From positions 360,915 through 424,914 of the forward strand of contig JASEIU010000002.1 of NCBI GenBank assembly GCA_030017715.1: a stretch of DNA of 64,000 bases, read 5' to 3'. This document shows positions 3,241 through 31,293 of this stretch, one piece after another. The translations under genes and the position numbers were made by a program. The notes under the pieces are model-generated. The model was not told where the DNA came from and made no database searches. It saw only the letters and a list, made by a program, of their open reading frames with translations. Positions within the stretch are counted from its first letter, which is position 1; every line of letters starts with the position of its first letter. This DNA comes from Candidatus Saccharicenans sp. Lineage in GTDB: Bacteria; Acidobacteriota; Aminicenantia; Aminicenantales; Saccharicenantaceae.

Positions 3241-3672
3241 CTTTTTTATTTTTGGTTCATCTCCCGATTAGTTGGTCAAAAGAAAAATATCTGGTTGAAT
3301 GACTATAAGATTTAATTGGACCGGGAGCGGCCTTTAGAAGCACAGCCTCAAAGAGAGATTAAAAGAGGTGTCTTCGCAGCCTTTTGATCAGCCCCGGCTC
3401 CAACCAAACGAGGAAGCCTCTCTATTTCCTTGACCGGCGGTAATAAAGGCAGGAGGGTGGCACGGGGTGTCTCCGAACCGCCCGCAGCGGAAGGGGTTTC
3501 CCGAATTTCAGCCAAAAAGGAAACGGCGAGGCTATCACAAAAAGAAAAATTCATTAATTTTCTCTCATTTAATAGATATAGCATTTTGTCAACTAATTTG
3601 GAGAAGATTCTTATTTTTAAATTATCCGGCAGGGGTAAATGCTGATGGGGTGGGGCAGCCAGGCAGAAAAAA
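3241..3672. other. Gene-free gap between tRNA-Glu and the HD-GYP gene
   Basis: No credible coding region is seen. The gap holds the T-run after tRNA-Glu and one truncated copy of the interspersed GC-rich repeat (3451-3502), flanked by AT-rich sequence. Short frames crossing the repeat lack start signals and family resemblance. Confidence 0.7.
3451..3502 (+). repeat. Interspersed GC-rich repeat, copy A (truncated)
   Basis: Starts AGGAGGGTGGCACGG, continues GTCTCCGAACCGCCCGCAGC and breaks off after GGAAGGGGTTTCCC. The same string occurs at 54996-55092 and, in reverse complement, at 16411-16508 and 25771-25878. This copy keeps only about the first half of the conserved module. Confidence 0.85.
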
Positions 3673-5016
3673 TTATTCGAGGGAAAATCCTTTTTGCTCG
3701 ATTAATTTCACACAGGCGTCGACCTCATCGGGACCGTAAAGCCGGCCGCGGTTGAGCTTGATTTCCTCAAGCGCCCGGTCAAGGCCGAAGGCCGGGCGAT
3801 AAGGACGGTGAGAAGCCATTGCTTCCACCACGTCGGCCACCGCCAGGATGCGGGCTTCAAGCAGTATCTGGCCGTTTTTCAGCCCGCGGGGGTAACCGGA
3901 GCCATCGATTCTTTCATGATGCTGGAGCACAATCTCGGCAATCGGCCAGGGGAATTCAATGGTCTTCAGGATTTCATGTCCTGCCTGGGGATGGGTTTTA
4001 ATGATGGTGTATTCCAGTTCGGTGAGCTTGGTCGGTTTGCTAAGAATTTCTGAGGGCACATAAATCTTACCGATGTCATGAATTTCGGCCGCCAGCTTCA
4101 GCCCTTCCAGCTGGGCTTCCGACATTCCCAGTTCCTTTCCGATGGCTTCGGCCAGCTTGGCCACCCGGCGCTGGTGGCCAGCGGTGTAGGGGTCCCGCAT
4201 TTCAATGGTGATGGAAATAGCCTGGATGGTACCCTGCAGGGCGCGCTGCAGCCTGGCCCAGCTGTCCTGGAGTTCCCGCTCTGCTTTTTTGCGGGCGGTT
4301 ATATCGCGAAAAACGATGACCTGACCGGGGCCGACTGCCATGTCCGGGGGCAGAGGGGCGACGGTTTGTTCGATTGGAATTTCCTGCCCGTCTTTGGAAA
4401 TCAGAACAGACTCCCGGAGCGAAAAAGGTTCGAAGTCAGCGGGTTGTCGGTTTTGGTCTTTCAGGCGGAAAACCTGTTCGAATTTCCGGCCCAGGGCTTG
4501 CTTTTCATCCAGGCCCGTCATCCTCTGGGCCACCGGGTTTATGAACGATATTAATCCTTCAGAATTAAGAACTATTATCCCATCGCCGATGCTTCTAAGA
4601 ATGGTTGACAGCCATTGTTCTTTCTCTCTCAGCAGCAGCTGCATTCTGGCTTTGTAGAGGGCGGTCTCGATGGTCAGCTCCAGCTCCCTCTCTTCAAAGG
4701 GCTTGATCAGGTAACCGAAGGGCTCGGTCAGCTTGGCCCGCTCGAAAGTCAGGTCGTCGGCAAACGAGGTTATGTAAACCACAGGAATGCAATATTCTTC
4801 CCAGACAACCGCGGCCACCGATATACCGTCAAGTTTGCCCTTCAGGACGATGTCCATCAAAACCAGGTCCGGCTTTTTCTGGTTGAGGCTGGCGATGACT
4901 TCTTCCCCGGTCTGAACCACACCGGTAACTTCGTAGCCGAGAAGCCTGACCATGTTATGGAGGTCCCTGGCCACCAGGTTTTCGTCTTCGACAATCAGCA
5001 CTCTGGCCTTGCTCAT
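3673..5016 (-). CDS. Response regulator with PAS and HD-GYP domains (cyclic-di-GMP phosphodiesterase)
   Basis: The 447-residue protein has a receiver domain (residues 1-120; phospho-acceptor Asp55 in LVLMDIVLKG, Lys105), a PAS domain (about 130-245) and an HD-GYP domain (about 265-440). The metal and signature residues are intact: His313-Asp314 in HDIGK, HHERIDGSGYP at 366-376. Such proteins hydrolyse c-di-GMP. The receiver is closely similar to that of the GGDEF protein at 7117-8394. It follows the histidine kinase gene by 66 bases, with a possible own promoter (TTGACC 5086-5081, 16 bp, TATGCT 5064-5059). Confidence 0.93.
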   Translation of the reverse strand: MSKARVLIVEDENLVARDLHNMVRLLGYEVTGVVQTGEEVIASLNQKKPDLVLMDIVLKGKLDGISVAAVVWEEYCIPVVYITSFADDLTFERAKLTEPFGYLIKPFEERELELTIETALYKARMQLLLREKEQWLSTILRSIGDGIIVLNSEGLISFINPVAQRMTGLDEKQALGRKFEQVFRLKDQNRQPADFEPFSLRESVLISKDGQEIPIEQTVAPLPPDMAVGPGQVIVFRDITARKKAERELQDSWARLQRALQGTIQAISITIEMRDPYTAGHQRRVAKLAEAIGKELGMSEAQLEGLKLAAEIHDIGKIYVPSEILSKPTKLTELEYTIIKTHPQAGHEILKTIEFPWPIAEIVLQHHERIDGSGYPRGLKNGQILLEARILAVADVVEAMASHRPYRPAFGLDRALEEIKLNRGRLYGPDEVDACVKLIEQKGFSLE

Positions 5017-20342: not shown

Positions 20343-21518
20343 TTATTTGCCCAGCCGGCGCTTGGTTTCTTCCATCAGCTGGTTGAACTTGGCGATGGCC
20401 GCCTCCTGCTGTTTTTTGAGCTTTTCGATTTCGGCCTGGATGGCGTCGATGTCGGCCTGGAATTCCTTCATCTTCTTCTTGTCCTTATCGGTCAGCTCGT
20501 CTTCGCTCTTGCCGCCGAACCGCTCATTGAATATCTTGGTCAGCTCCTCCAGTTCTTTGACCTTGTTCTGGATGGCCAGCACCGTTTCGTTGTACTTCAG
20601 CTCCTTGTTCATGGTAAAGAACAGGCCCTCGGCCATCTCCCTGGCTTTTTCGGAGTTGGGGTTGGGCAGAAAGGCAGCCTCCAGGGAGTAACGGACAGCT
20701 TCGTTAACCACCGACGGGTCGGTCTTGGCCTTGTTGGCCAGGATAACGGCAATGGAGAAAGCCACCTCCCCGGCCTTCTTCTTGCCATAAGCTTCTTTGA
20801 GCAGAGCCAGGGCTTCGTCGTTCTTTCCGGCCCTGTTCAGAAGCTGACCCAGGATTATGGCATCGTTGGGGTCCTTGGTCAGGTTGTAGATGGCCCGGTA
20901 GACTTTTTCCGCCTCGGCAAAATTTTTGGCGTCGGCGTAGGTCTTGCCCATCTTGCGGACTGAAGCCATTATGCTCTTATCTTTACTCAGGGAGTATGCG
21001 TTGAGATAGGCTTCGACCGCGGCCGCCGTGTCCTTTGATTTTTCGGCGGCGTTGCCCAGGATATAATATCCGGCCGCGGTTATTTTGTTCCATTTGTCGG
21101 GGTTAGCCCCCTCCTTGGATTTTTCGGTCCTGGCGATTTCGATCAGCTGGTTGCCATAGTTTCGGGCCTTATCCAGGTTCTGCCCCTGGTTGACATAGTT
21201 ATTGGCCAGAAAAACCATCAGCGAAACCCTGACCTCGGCATCCAGCCCGCCGGCAGAAAGAGCTTTCTCTCCGTAATTAAGAGATTCCTGAAGGCTCTTG
21301 CTCGGACACGGAATCAAACAGAGATAAGCGTAAGCATAATTTTCGTACTGCGAACCTTTGCCAGCGTACTGATTTATGAATTCTTTCAGCAACTTGACCT
21401 TCTCGCAGTTGTCCTGGACGGTCATAGCCTTGATGTAGGCTTCATCAGCCGGGTTCTGGGCCCAGACCGTTCCGGCCGCCAGCAGTATTAATAGTGAAAA
21501 CAGTAAAGTTTTTTTCAT
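20343..21518 (-). CDS. Exported TPR protein with a C-terminal coiled coil
   Basis: A cleavable signal peptide (MKKTLLFSLLILLAAGTVWA, then Q) sends the 391-residue protein across the inner membrane. TPR-like helical pairs fill residues about 30-290, with motifs such as AEKVYRAIYNLTKDPNDA. The last 90 residues are Glu/Lys/Gln-rich and probably a coiled coil. No enzymatic motif is visible. GAGGTCAGAG precedes the ATG. A TTGACA lies near 21584-21579 but its -10 box is unclear. A partner-binding role in the periplasm is likely but unproven. Confidence 0.82.
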   Translation of the reverse strand: MKKTLLFSLLILLAAGTVWAQNPADEAYIKAMTVQDNCEKVKLLKEFINQYAGKGSQYENYAYAYLCLIPCPSKSLQESLNYGEKALSAGGLDAEVRVSLMVFLANNYVNQGQNLDKARNYGNQLIEIARTEKSKEGANPDKWNKITAAGYYILGNAAEKSKDTAAAVEAYLNAYSLSKDKSIMASVRKMGKTYADAKNFAEAEKVYRAIYNLTKDPNDAIILGQLLNRAGKNDEALALLKEAYGKKKAGEVAFSIAVILANKAKTDPSVVNEAVRYSLEAAFLPNPNSEKAREMAEGLFFTMNKELKYNETVLAIQNKVKELEELTKIFNERFGGKSEDELTDKDKKKMKEFQADIDAIQAEIEKLKKQQEAAIAKFNQLMEETKRRLGK

Positions 21519-21645
21519 CTCTGACCTCGCTCAAAAAATTAATTTGCTCAATATCTTGCCCGTTAACAGAAAAAATGTCAATAGAGGATTTTTTATTTTA
21601 AGCCCTCTATTATTGTCTGCTGCAATTAATGTGCCAGATAGCCAG

Positions 21646-27863: not shown

Positions 27864-28403
27864 TTAAAACGGACCTCTCTTCTGCCCCCGGCTCCGGCTC
27901 CAGGAAGGGAAGCCGCGGCGATCTCTCAGAGTGATGGTCTGGTTGTTGATTCTTACCTCCCGGGCGACCACCACCTTTTTCCCGTCCTTCTGGTCTTCGG
28001 AGAGCGAACCTATCAGCCTGATTTTCTCGCCTTTATGAATGTCAGATCTGAAAAACCAGGCCGGAGCTGTTTCCACCTCCAGAAGCTCCTGACTGTTCTT
28101 ATCCCTGACCAGCAGAACCAGAAAGGACCCTTTCCCCTCATACCTGGCTTCAATTTTCAGGTCTTCAATCTGTCCTTCGACTTTAATTTCCCGGTCGACG
28201 TTATAATAACGTGCTTGAGCCTGATCGGCCTGATTCTCCGAGCCCGGGCTGAACCAGGAACCCTCGGCGGCAGTCAGCGCTGTCGCTAAGAAAAGGACGG
28301 CAATGGACCGGAAGAATTGTCCGCCCGATCTCCGGTCTGGCTTTGATTTCCTGCCCCGGTATTTCCTTTTTTTAATCTTTTCATTTTTATTCGGCGCCTT
28401 CAT
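27864..28403 (-). CDS. Exported small basic protein, possible OB-fold, function unknown
   Basis: I do not recognise the family. The 179-residue protein starts with a very basic stretch (KKRKYRGRKSKPDRR), then one hydrophobic segment (IAVLFLATALTAAEG) that could be a signal anchor or late-cleaved signal. Residues about 68-155 are predicted beta-rich (IKVEGQIEDLKIEARYEGKG...KGEKIRLIGSL...VVVAREVRI), consistent with an OB-like barrel. It ends in an Arg/Gly/Ser-rich tail with RGFPSWSRSRGQ. It lies 12 bases after the beta-barrel gene, so the two are probably cotranscribed. Confidence 0.6.
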   Translation of the reverse strand: MKAPNKNEKIKKRKYRGRKSKPDRRSGGQFFRSIAVLFLATALTAAEGSWFSPGSENQADQAQARYYNVDREIKVEGQIEDLKIEARYEGKGSFLVLLVRDKNSQELLEVETAPAWFFRSDIHKGEKIRLIGSLSEDQKDGKKVVVAREVRINNQTITLRDRRGFPSWSRSRGQKRGPF

Positions 28404-28415
28404 AGCTATACTCCA

Positions 28416-29768
28416 TTACTTAGATGGAGAAACCTGAAGATTCCAGACCAGCCCTCCACTTATGATATTGCCGTTCCAGGTAAACCACGGGTCGGTGGAA
28501 GAATTTTTCAGGTATGAATAATTTATGAAAAAGGAAACCTGGCGCAGGTCAAGCTGAATCCGGGCACTGAACTGATGCCTTTTATCCTGCCTGCCCAGGC
28601 CCAGGCTGTTGCCTTCCAGGTCGAGGCTGTCGATTCCGGGAAATTTTCTGGAAAAATAATCATACTGAAAGGCAGAGTTCAGATTTTCAGACAGCAGAGC
28701 CGTCAATCTGGCGGTCAGAGAATAACCTTCCCAGCTGAACTGATCATAAGTCGGGTTTTCAACCATGAACAATTCGTCGCTGGAAGCGAATGGGTTTTCC
28801 CCTCTGAGGTTCCACTGCTTGAGGGCGCTCAGGCTCAGGCCAAAGCGGTCGCCGATCCCCTGGGCCAGGAGGCCGCTCAGGGAGACGATCTGGATGTTTT
28901 GACTGCCGGTGTAATAGATGGTCTGGTAGGGGATGCCCCTGATGCTGTAACTCCCGCCCATCTCATAATTCTGCCCGGGCCCTCCGTGGTTGCCGGGGCC
29001 TCCCTGGAGGGTGGCCAGGGGCAAAAGGATTGGTCGACGGTAAGCCAGAACACCCAGGCCGGTTCCGGAAAAAGCTTCCGAAACAACAGGCGGAGTCTCT
29101 TCCCCGGCAGATGAAATTATCCCGGGGTGAAAATAAAGTTTGTAACCGTATCCGGCCTCGATTTTTATGGTAGTTTTTGAGGGAAAGAAATGGTCAAGAG
29201 AAAGGGTCAGGTTTTCTGAAAAATAATCAAATATGGAATATTTGTAGTCCCTTAGCTGGCTGATGGTATCGAGCCGGAGAATGGTGGAAGCATCAAGATA
29301 ACTCTTAAAATTGGCCACCAGCCGGATGGTGCCATGATTGAAGTAGTTGTACAGGCTTCTGAACAGGACGCCCTCTCCCTCCAGGGCAAAATAAAAGGCG
29401 CTCCTGGAACCGGCCGGGACTAAGTAGTCGGCCCCGAGCTTTCCGGAGAACGAACTCAAGCCAGAGTACTTATAAAGAAAACTCAGGTTGAAATCTCCGT
29501 ACAGGGATATTGGTTCCGAATCGCCTCCGAAGGAAAAAGAGGCGTTGGTCAACTGGTCGGAAAGCGGCTGGTAGGATTGAAAGATGTTGCTGGTGGCGTT
29601 GTGGGCCAGGGAGAACTGGACGGTTGACCCGGCTGAATAGCCGACCAGAAAAAGCGACAATAACCACGTGGTCAACCACAAGCCGCAACGCTTTTCCATA
29701 ACCATGTTTCTGCTTGTAGACCCTATCTTAATTATATGATTTTTTGACCTGATACTTAAATCCGCCAT
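28416..29768 (-). CDS. Predicted outer-membrane beta-barrel protein
   Basis: No family is recognised. After a long basic N-region and a hydrophobic signal (LWLTTWLLSLFLVGYSAG), the 450-residue protein consists of alternating polar and aromatic residues typical of transmembrane beta strands (for example LYGDFNLSFLYKYSGL, SAFYFALEGEG, VSFFINYSYLKNS), with a Gly/Pro/Asn loop near residue 265. ATG 29768 is chosen because AGGAGGGG lies just before it. It sits between the Gln-rich exported protein gene and the basic exported protein gene on the same strand. Confidence 0.72.
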   Translation of the reverse strand: MADLSIRSKNHIIKIGSTSRNMVMEKRCGLWLTTWLLSLFLVGYSAGSTVQFSLAHNATSNIFQSYQPLSDQLTNASFSFGGDSEPISLYGDFNLSFLYKYSGLSSFSGKLGADYLVPAGSRSAFYFALEGEGVLFRSLYNYFNHGTIRLVANFKSYLDASTILRLDTISQLRDYKYSIFDYFSENLTLSLDHFFPSKTTIKIEAGYGYKLYFHPGIISSAGEETPPVVSEAFSGTGLGVLAYRRPILLPLATLQGGPGNHGGPGQNYEMGGSYSIRGIPYQTIYYTGSQNIQIVSLSGLLAQGIGDRFGLSLSALKQWNLRGENPFASSDELFMVENPTYDQFSWEGYSLTARLTALLSENLNSAFQYDYFSRKFPGIDSLDLEGNSLGLGRQDKRHQFSARIQLDLRQVSFFINYSYLKNSSTDPWFTWNGNIISGGLVWNLQVSPSK

Positions 29769-29894
29769 TGTCCCCTCCTGTCTTATTTCGGGTATCAATC
29801 ATCTTGTTCCTGTCCAGCGACTGGAAAGATGGCCATTTAAAACAGGAAAGAACCGGGCCTGACATCCCGGTTCTCCCCTGGCTTCCGACACCTG

Positions 29895-30746
29895 TTACCG
29901 GTTTCCTTTTCTGGACACTGCCCCTTTCGGACCGGTGCCGTCACAGATTCTGGCCGCCAGGCTGGTCTGGGTTCTAAAGGCCTGTCTGGACATGGTCATG
30001 TTTCTGTTCATGGACTTATTCATAACCTGACCGGAACCGCTGCTTTCAGGAGAGCCTTTATATCCGGTGCCGTCCTTGGGGGCGGTCCAATCCGGATCCT
30101 GGCAGTTGGGAATTCCGTCGCCGTCATGATCCCGGTAAAAATCATTGATACCATCTCCGTCTTCATCCACGAACGGTCCGCCCTTTTTCACTCTGTTTCT
30201 GGGCTGCTCTTTGATCTGGTTCTGAACCCTGTTTCTTTCTTCGTTGCGAACCTGGTTTTTGGTCTGATTCTGTTCTTTTGCCTTGACCTGCAGATTATGC
30301 TCTGTCACCGGCTTTCCTTCACCCTCTTTATTAATGGAAATCTGATTTTCGACAGCCTGGTTCTGAACCTGATGCTGAATCTGCAGCTGTTGCTTCATTT
30401 CAACCTGACCCTGTTCGTTTTCCTGTCTTTCTACCCGGTTCTGGATCTCGTTTCGCACCTGAGTCTGGGACTTTGAATTTTCGCCGGCCTGGTTCTCGAT
30501 AGTTTTCTGAACCTCGGCCCTGACCTGTTCCTGTTCTCGGTTTTGTTCTCTCTGCTGGGTCTGAGGCTGCTCCTGGCCTTTGTTCTGGACCTGGGCCGTC
30601 TCCTGGTTCTTCACCTGTTCCTTCTGCTCGGTCTTCGCCTTTTCTTTATTCTGTTCGGTGTTTTCCTGAGCGAAGGAATAGGAAGCAACCAGGACGACCG
30701 CCAGTAATCCGATGGCGACCGCCATCAACATTTTTTTAATTCTCAT
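29895..30746 (-). CDS. Exported Gln/Asn/Glu-rich protein with calcium-binding-type repeats
   Basis: A signal peptide (MRIKKMLMAVAIGLLAVVLV, cleaved about at SFA-Q) precedes about 160 residues made almost only of Q, N, E, K, R and V, with recurring QVRNE/QVQNQ-like units. Then DEDGDGIND and DHDGDGIPNCQD form two thrombospondin type-3-like calcium motifs, and a Ser/Met/Arg-rich tail follows. The 283-residue reading starts at ATG 30746, after AGGAGG. The low-complexity part suggests an extended or self-assembling extracellular protein; this is inference. Downstream lie the beta-barrel and basic exported protein genes. Confidence 0.75.
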   Translation of the reverse strand: MRIKKMLMAVAIGLLAVVLVASYSFAQENTEQNKEKAKTEQKEQVKNQETAQVQNKGQEQPQTQQREQNREQEQVRAEVQKTIENQAGENSKSQTQVRNEIQNRVERQENEQGQVEMKQQLQIQHQVQNQAVENQISINKEGEGKPVTEHNLQVKAKEQNQTKNQVRNEERNRVQNQIKEQPRNRVKKGGPFVDEDGDGINDFYRDHDGDGIPNCQDPDWTAPKDGTGYKGSPESSGSGQVMNKSMNRNMTMSRQAFRTQTSLAARICDGTGPKGAVSRKGNR

Positions 30747-31293
30747 GTTTAACCTCCTATCATGAGTCTCGTCCTTAATAATTGCAAACATCGTGCCAAT
30801 TTTTAACTTATTGATTATAAGCAATTTATATTCGCACCCCGGCTATTTTCACTGACAAATTTGTTTGGCACCCGACAATTTTGTAGGATCTTTTGAGATA
30901 TCCATGATGAAAACAATCAAGGAACCACTGGCCCGTTGTAAAGAGTTTGAATTTTACCAGACGGAGATATGAGAGATTCAAATTCATAGCTTCTTTCTTC
31001 TAAGTCAGCCAGAATAGAAAGGCCTGACGGGAGAGAGTAAAGGTGTCATTTTACTTCAGAGCGCGTTTAGTATCACAGTTGCCGAATGAGAATGAATGAG
31101 ATTAGCCCCGGATTCAATCCGAAAAGTAATTCTTCTTGTGGTTATAATCAGCGACTATTTTCTTTTTTTCTGCTATTAATGATCAGGAATTGAAATTATA
31201 ACCACAAACTGGAAAAAGCTCCCGGGCCGGGTTCTTCCGTTTTGCAGCGGGTAATTTTTGTCGGAAGAGCCTTCACTGGAAGTCTGCTTTTTT
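30747..31293. other. Gene-free gap between the Gln-rich protein and homoserine dehydrogenase
   Basis: About 550 AT-rich bases without a credible frame. It contains a perfect 13-base inverted repeat at 31136-31207 and a shorter TTTGAAT/ATTCAAA pairing near 30948-30982. The promoter of the Gln-rich gene must lie in its left part. Confidence 0.65.
31136..31207. repeat. Perfect 13-base inverted repeat, 46-base spacer
   Basis: TTGTGGTTATAAT (31136-31148) and ATTATAACCACAA (31195-31207) are exact reverse complements. The spacer is pyrimidine-rich on its left (TTTTCTTTTTTTCTG) and has no coding capacity. It might be a small MITE-like remnant or an RNA stem; no transposase is near. Confidence 0.7.

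Follow-up and report, generated by a model that had tools for sequence, protein, structure and literature searches.

A conserved operon for an outer-membrane barrel and a calcium-motif protein in Candidatus Saccharicenans, with a predicted sigma-54 switch and a possible role in surface display

In the functional amyloids curli and Fap a low-complexity subunit is secreted in abundance and has an outer-membrane pore of its own. In type XI secretion (T11SS) a single outer-membrane barrel of the Slam/DUF560 family (PF04575) is encoded next to a small secreted protein. T11SS has been described so far in Proteobacteria and its cargo, which is known to include adhesins and metal-binding proteins, carries a C-terminal 8-stranded barrel domain (PMC12282271). 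A single OB fold behind a signal or anchor helix is the arrangement seen in MamS and the YgiW/YdeI (BOF) family, E. coli YgiW having served as the template for an OB-fold model of MamS (PMC3905215). Bacterial TSP3 repeats (PF18884) show the calcium-ligand pattern DxDGDGIxN, and NtrB/NtrC-type sigma-54 systems are made up of a HisKA/HATPase kinase, a receiver-AAA+-Fis activator, a -24/-12 promoter and tandem upstream enhancers. Here we describe a locus with a likeness to each of these, found in a window of 64,000 nucleotides (the whole stretch of DNA that was analysed) from Candidatus Saccharicenans sp. The literature searched contained no description of the operon, and nothing for its repeat motif or for TSP3 repeats with sigma-54.

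The locus consists of three open reading frames, all on the minus strand, in the order gene 1, barrel gene, OB gene, with spacers of 126 and 12 nt given the chosen start codons:

29895..30746, minus strand: gene 1, a predicted exported calcium-motif protein of 283 aa from the ATG, with orthologues directly before the barrel gene in relatives
28416..29768, minus strand: gene 2, an outer-membrane beta-barrel of 450 aa, with about 16 strands in the model
27864..28403, minus strand: gene 3, a predicted exported OB-fold protein of 179 aa with a distant MamS resemblance

These match the reading frames delimited in an earlier note on this DNA, which left out the promoter and enhancers (reaching to 30887) and an unlinked two-component pair outside the window. 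The flanking genes are metabolic and unremarkable, coding for homoserine dehydrogenase, citrate synthase, a Cys/Met PLP enzyme and an EPSP-synthase family protein. With the gene 1 protein, the barrel and the OB protein alike, all Pfam and NCBIfam families stay below their cut-offs, in agreement with the earlier view that none of the three belongs to a family that can be named.

Amongst 94 genomes of the order the barrel is present in 51, the OB gene in 49 and both in 48. The three genomes with the barrel alone and the one with the OB gene alone all have it at a contig end, so that, wherever the contig permits a judgement, neither gene is found without the other. Gene 1 lies directly upstream of the barrel gene in 19 of 20 relatives' neighbourhoods; in L071 the true gene, masked by a false ORF, is at 3332-4249. 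One member of the genus, G070 (92% complete), is without the barrel, the OB gene and the regulator discussed below. Amongst 297 genomes of the phylum the gene 1 repeat is found only in its own class; outside the phylum it occurs in Calditrichota, KSB1, Ignavibacteriota, Chlorobiota, Zixibacteria, Neomarinimicrobiota and Bacteroidetes bins. Of the 52 loci L153-L204, which are mostly FCB with some divergent Aminicenantes, 34 have a homologous barrel in the same cluster, 33 have an NtrC-type regulator and 31 have a kinase. The OB gene is found only in the Aminicenantes/Acidobacteriota type of cluster and is absent from the FCB versions, and so is not a general part. The expected linkage in relatives is therefore borne out, both by co-occurrence and by a gene order kept in relatives and in other phyla. 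That three unrelated exported proteins are neighbours by chance, a thought invited by the absence of family names for any of them, has next to no probability, being refuted by the co-occurrence, the gene order, the shared promoter and the trans-phylum recurrence. Judging from these genome comparisons the three genes are one conserved unit, its linkage kept across the order and beyond.

Some variation in the surroundings was also seen. FCB loci such as L164, L171, L181, L193 and L196 often have a second small exported DxDGDG protein directly before the barrel, with a different pattern that ends DxDGDGI(C/A)DxRG and a basic tail. Other Aminicenantes families (L072, L077-L081, L134-L137) have an ECF sigma factor gene in divergent orientation to the operon; behind it come periplasmic, membrane-fusion-like, ABC and FtsX-like genes, and in many cases one more small exported protein lies in between. 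Clusters of Calditrichota and Aminicenantes type also stand on contigs (L169, L135) binned as Heimdallarchaeota and Clostridiales, which are probably misbinned.

The gene 1 protein is made up of a signal peptide, likely cleaved after SFA, a stretch of about 165 residues rich in Gln, Asn, Glu and Lys, two DxDGDG motifs and a short basic tail:

30174..30668, minus strand: Gln/Asn/Glu/Lys-rich stretch of gene 1, long only in its own genus
30087..30173, minus strand: TSP3-like calcium repeat FVDEDGDGINDFYRDHDGDGIPNCQDPDW, the conserved core of gene 1 by alignment, with homologues in several phyla
29898..29945, minus strand: conserved C-terminal tail CDGTGPKGAVSRKGNR, with a CDGTG-like motif in 60 of 94 homologues

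The composition of the first of these (23% Q, 12% N, 15% E, 11% K, 7% R and 9% V) is as the earlier note described it. The QVRNE/QVQNQ units that it named are, however, compositional: Tandem Repeats Finder detected no DNA tandem repeat underlying them, the sole array in gene 1 being a marginal one (12 bp x 2.2, score 33). The two calcium motifs placed after the Gln-rich part are present, as VDEDGDGIND and HDGDGIPN. The Gln-rich stretch measures about 165-190 residues within the genus and mostly 10-50 elsewhere, and short Q/N/K-rich linkers recur in the Ignavibacteriota and Calditrichota homologues; on this pattern it is a lineage-specific expansion. The emphasis formerly laid on it was misplaced and we ruled it out as the defining feature. 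What is conserved is the calcium repeat, in the alignment FVDENGDGINDxxRDHDGDGIPNCQDPDW..DGTGY, together with the C-terminal CDGTGPKG. The best match to the conserved core is from Ca. S. subterraneus (95%), and in the FCB phyla the calcium repeat is present in one to four copies. Although the DxDGDGIxN pattern is that of bacterial TSP3 repeats, the family has the additional conserved QDPDW and CDGTGPKG motifs. The Pfam model PF18884 (TSP3_bac) gave no match in the window protein, and the homologue at L186 reached 15 of the required 25 bits. The module resembles curli and Fap in its predicted abundant secreted low-complexity subunit and dedicated barrel; unlike them, its Gln-rich stretch is not kept at length outside the genus, and no curli or Fap component family was matched by any of the three window proteins in Pfam or NCBIfam.

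Upstream of gene 1 lie the elements of a putative sigma-54-dependent switch:

30753..30758, minus strand: ribosome-binding site AGGAGG of gene 1, read from the sequence
30783..30798, minus strand: sigma-54 (-24/-12) promoter TGGCACGATGTTTGCA, a strict consensus match with its end 36 nt before the gene 1 start codon
30852..30867, minus strand: predicted enhancer site 2 CAAACAAATTTGTCAG, a palindrome at -69, 20 bp from site 1
30872..30887, minus strand: predicted enhancer site 1 CCTACAAAATTGTCGG, a palindrome at -89 from the sigma-54 site, with the same position and palindrome in most relatives

Strict sigma-54 sites number two in the window where 0.02 would be expected, and 14 in the genome (G000) against one control match. 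The strict consensus finds the site in this position in 15 of 20 relatives, and a looser one adds 2 more; it is also present in 34 of 87 homologous genes of loci L126-L204, with none in the reversed control. An enhancer-type palindrome was found in 28 of the 39 upstream regions having a sigma-54 site (0.75 in Markov controls), at about -89/-69 in Aminicenantes and, as TCGAC-N6-GTCGA, at -88 to -134 in FCB. When two mismatches are allowed the tandem enhancer pattern occurs once in the 2.9 Mb genome, and, the pair being unique, the regulon seems confined to this operon.

Outside the genus most relatives have a histidine kinase and an NtrC-type regulator after the OB gene, as do the genus members L069-L071, which makes a five-gene operon; the order gene 1, barrel, OB, kinase, activator is that of other families and of these three members of the genus. 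The "three-gene set" of the earlier note is therefore a real conserved unit but an understated one, as five genes, with the histidine kinase and sigma-54 activator, make up the unit in most extra-genus relatives. The present genome has orthologues of both kinase and regulator, with 54% and 77% identity respectively, but outside the window, about 110 kb away (C11:499987-502603), and a regulator match was obtained in 11 of 18 other genus genomes. The regulator has a receiver, a Sigma54_activat (PF00158, 4.5e-68) and a Fis-type domain. The moved pair has no enhancer-type site of its own and the enhancers have been kept here though the pair has moved, which points to one regulator with one target. 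Orthology and the conserved sites suggest that the unlinked pair would control this promoter. The locus thus has what a sigma-54-dependent operon comprises, namely a -24/-12 promoter at a conserved position, upstream sites and a presumably cognate activator with a Sigma54_activat domain. It differs from the NtrB/NtrC systems in that the pair seems to have one envelope operon as its only target, which in this lineage it would control from a position off the operon, and in the GAYTDA loop described next. Distances for barrel and regulator are correlated (Mantel 0.90 overall and 0.78 within FCB), which reflects shared ancestry as well as co-evolution.

The sigma-54 contact loop of the regulator reads GAYTDA in this genome instead of GAFTGA. 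The form GA[FY]TDA is found in all nine genus genomes with a regulator match away from the operon (L205-L213) and GAFTGA in three where it is linked (L214-L216). The NorR variant G266D is constitutive (PMC2941729). We set aside GA[FY]TDA as a sign of a constitutive activator, and do not rely on it, because two other activators of this genome carry GAFTDA.

The spacer between gene 1 and the barrel gene contains a further element:

29843..29880, minus strand: terminator-like hairpin, 15 bp stem, -26.5 kcal/mol, followed by TTTT

Hairpins occur at the same position in relatives with unrelated sequences. With uniform scoring a hairpin was called in 30 of 38 loci, in none of the 38 control positions at the barrel 3' end and in 1.6% of shuffled sequences. 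That the stem sequence varies while the hairpin persists suggests that selection favours either partial termination or stability of the upstream mRNA, and in both cases more calcium-motif protein than barrel would be made. The role of the hairpin could be mRNA stabilisation rather than transcription end. The predicted excess of the gene 1 product would be more in keeping with a pore and the product exported through it than with a receptor pair.

The AlphaFold2 model of the gene 2 protein shows a hydrophobic helix and then strands from residue 48, about 16 in total, with a core pLDDT >90. A fold search against the PDB returned outer-membrane barrels of many families with TM scores of 0.32-0.46, AlgE coming first at about 0.45; model and matches both agree with the assignment of the protein as an outer-membrane barrel. 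The earlier note had named identity with a known porin beforehand as the outcome that would speak against its reading. No known porin family was found by Pfam, by PDB sequence search with a profile or by the fold search, in which the matches are generic, and we rejected such an identity for the window barrel.

The resemblance to Slam barrels is weak. A few FCB barrels exceed the PF04575 cut-off of 22 bits (L168 28.0, L185 27.9 and L178 22.6) and that of L168 aligns through residues 125-381 with profile positions 45-285 of 288, while the PF04575 SlipAM barrel model has no match in the window barrel and none in its own class. Unlike the Slam barrels, the window barrel, with its approximately 16 modelled strands, lacks an N-terminal periplasmic TPR region, no TPR family having been found in it by Pfam or in the model. 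The gene 1 protein lacks the C-terminal 8-stranded barrel domain of T11SS cargo. We therefore did not file the locus as T11SS, since the window class fails PF04575 and both the TPR part and the cargo handle domain are absent.

An alternative is that the barrel is a nutrient or ion porin, with the calcium-motif and OB proteins as periplasmic partners for ligand capture, gating or as a plug, and with the two-component system sensing the nutrient. Solute and polysaccharide channels of the AlgE, FadL and OprD type do come first in the fold search, the Slam similarity is confined to a few FCB members whereas the matches of the window barrel are generic, and the OB and gene 1 proteins, which have signal peptides and no further sorting signal that we recognised, would fit the periplasm. 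However, for a porin and its binding protein a hairpin-driven excess of the small protein over the barrel would be out of the ordinary, the above-cut-off matches of some barrel relatives are to Slam and not to porin families, and the gene 1 protein, being largely low-complexity and calcium repeats, is unlike a ligand-binding protein. We regard the porin as unlikely, though with a real chance of being correct.

For the gene 3 protein AlphaFold2 gives an OB fold behind an N-terminal hydrophobic helix (core pLDDT >90) and the PDB matches are mostly OB folds, as expected from its prior description as exported and OB-like. Though it shares this architecture with MamS and the YgiW/YdeI family, it falls far below the threshold of MamS, with 20.8 bits (NF040991, cut-off 200), and below that of the YgiW/NirD stress OB family, with 16.9 bits (NF033674, cut-off 35). 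The MamS model is weakly matched by 22 of 29 gene 3 relatives (best E 5e-8). There are no magnetosome genes in the neighbourhood examined, where the neighbours are metabolic and regulatory, and MamS membership was rejected on the score. A 308-aa ORF with two OB matches is present at G014:C145:10783-11514, and a second OB copy, broken by stop codons, at G076:C4:38745-39051.

The below-threshold similarity to YgiW would suit an envelope-stress or metal-response operon, in which the acidic DxDGDG protein would bind metal ions in the periplasm or at the surface and have a role in resistance. So would the divergent ECF sigma factor with its downstream periplasmic and efflux-like genes in some relatives, and the KSB1 locus L162, where the operon lies between an efflux-like set and an ABC exporter. 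Such neighbours are, however, not common to the genus itself or to most FCB loci, and the unique enhancer pair, with a regulon seemingly confined to this operon, also argues against it; we consider this explanation improbable. Much less probable still would be a redox or extracellular electron-transfer accessory set, with the barrel, the MamS/MamX-like OB protein and the calcium protein serving outer-membrane cytochromes. Multihaem cytochromes or a CxxCH barrel do stand beside some FCB clusters (L157, L172 and L177) and a DUF4405 membrane protein is found in L156 and L195, but the three window proteins contain no CxxCH motif and no recognisable cytochrome is beside the operon in the Aminicenantes loci listed.

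We give an even chance to the reading that a dedicated sigma-54 operon, with these three genes as its structural part, serves barrel-mediated export or surface display of the calcium-motif protein. The earlier proposal of a surface protein with its own outer-membrane partner is still the best reading and is strengthened by the sigma-54 control and the hairpin, while the export itself we infer. Barrel-mediated export or anchoring is the most economical reading, with thin support beyond the linkage; for the linkage and the regulatory anatomy the computed evidence is strong, which is not so for a transport function.

The gene linkage, promoter, enhancers, activator domains, hairpin, and barrel and OB folds are the parts supported by sequence and models, and around them a mechanism can be proposed. 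The membrane histidine kinase would sense an envelope or environmental signal and phosphorylate the NtrC-type activator, which would bind the two palindromic enhancers and open the sigma-54 promoter. Leaky termination at the hairpin after gene 1 would cut read-through, so that the calcium-motif protein would outnumber both the barrel and the OB protein. The barrel would most likely move the calcium-motif protein across the outer membrane, or hold it there, perhaps assisted in folding, docking or gating by the periplasmic OB-fold protein. At the surface the DxDGDG repeats, if they bind calcium, may become ordered by it and form a matrix or an adhesive layer. It is possible, at somewhat less than even probability, that this constitutes a new export or display system of Aminicenantes and FCB, in which a TPR-less barrel delivers a calcium-repeat protein under a sigma-54 two-component switch and the hairpin sets the excess of cargo. 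If so, there would be a compact cross-phylum secretion or display module in Aminicenantes, Calditrichota, KSB1, Ignavibacteriota and Chlorobiota, groups of almost unknown surface biology, and dedicated one-barrel export would exist beyond the described range of T11SS. The reading makes exact, testable predictions about its parts: a single promoter with two enhancers, one activator, a single attenuating hairpin, and one barrel for one cargo.

The window contains a second perfect sigma-54 promoter, TGGCACATTAATTGCA, at 21621-21636 on the minus strand, upstream of the gene for an exported 391-aa protein (20343-21518, minus strand). This site lacks the tandem enhancer pattern and therefore probably answers to a different activator. 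Behind other sigma-54 sites of the genome (L082-L089) are genes which, named by eye, encode exported carboxypeptidase-regulatory or receptor-like proteins, a type IV pilin-like protein and a FecR-like exported protein, and by the same inspection the sigma-54 regulon of this genome would appear to be mostly cell-surface.
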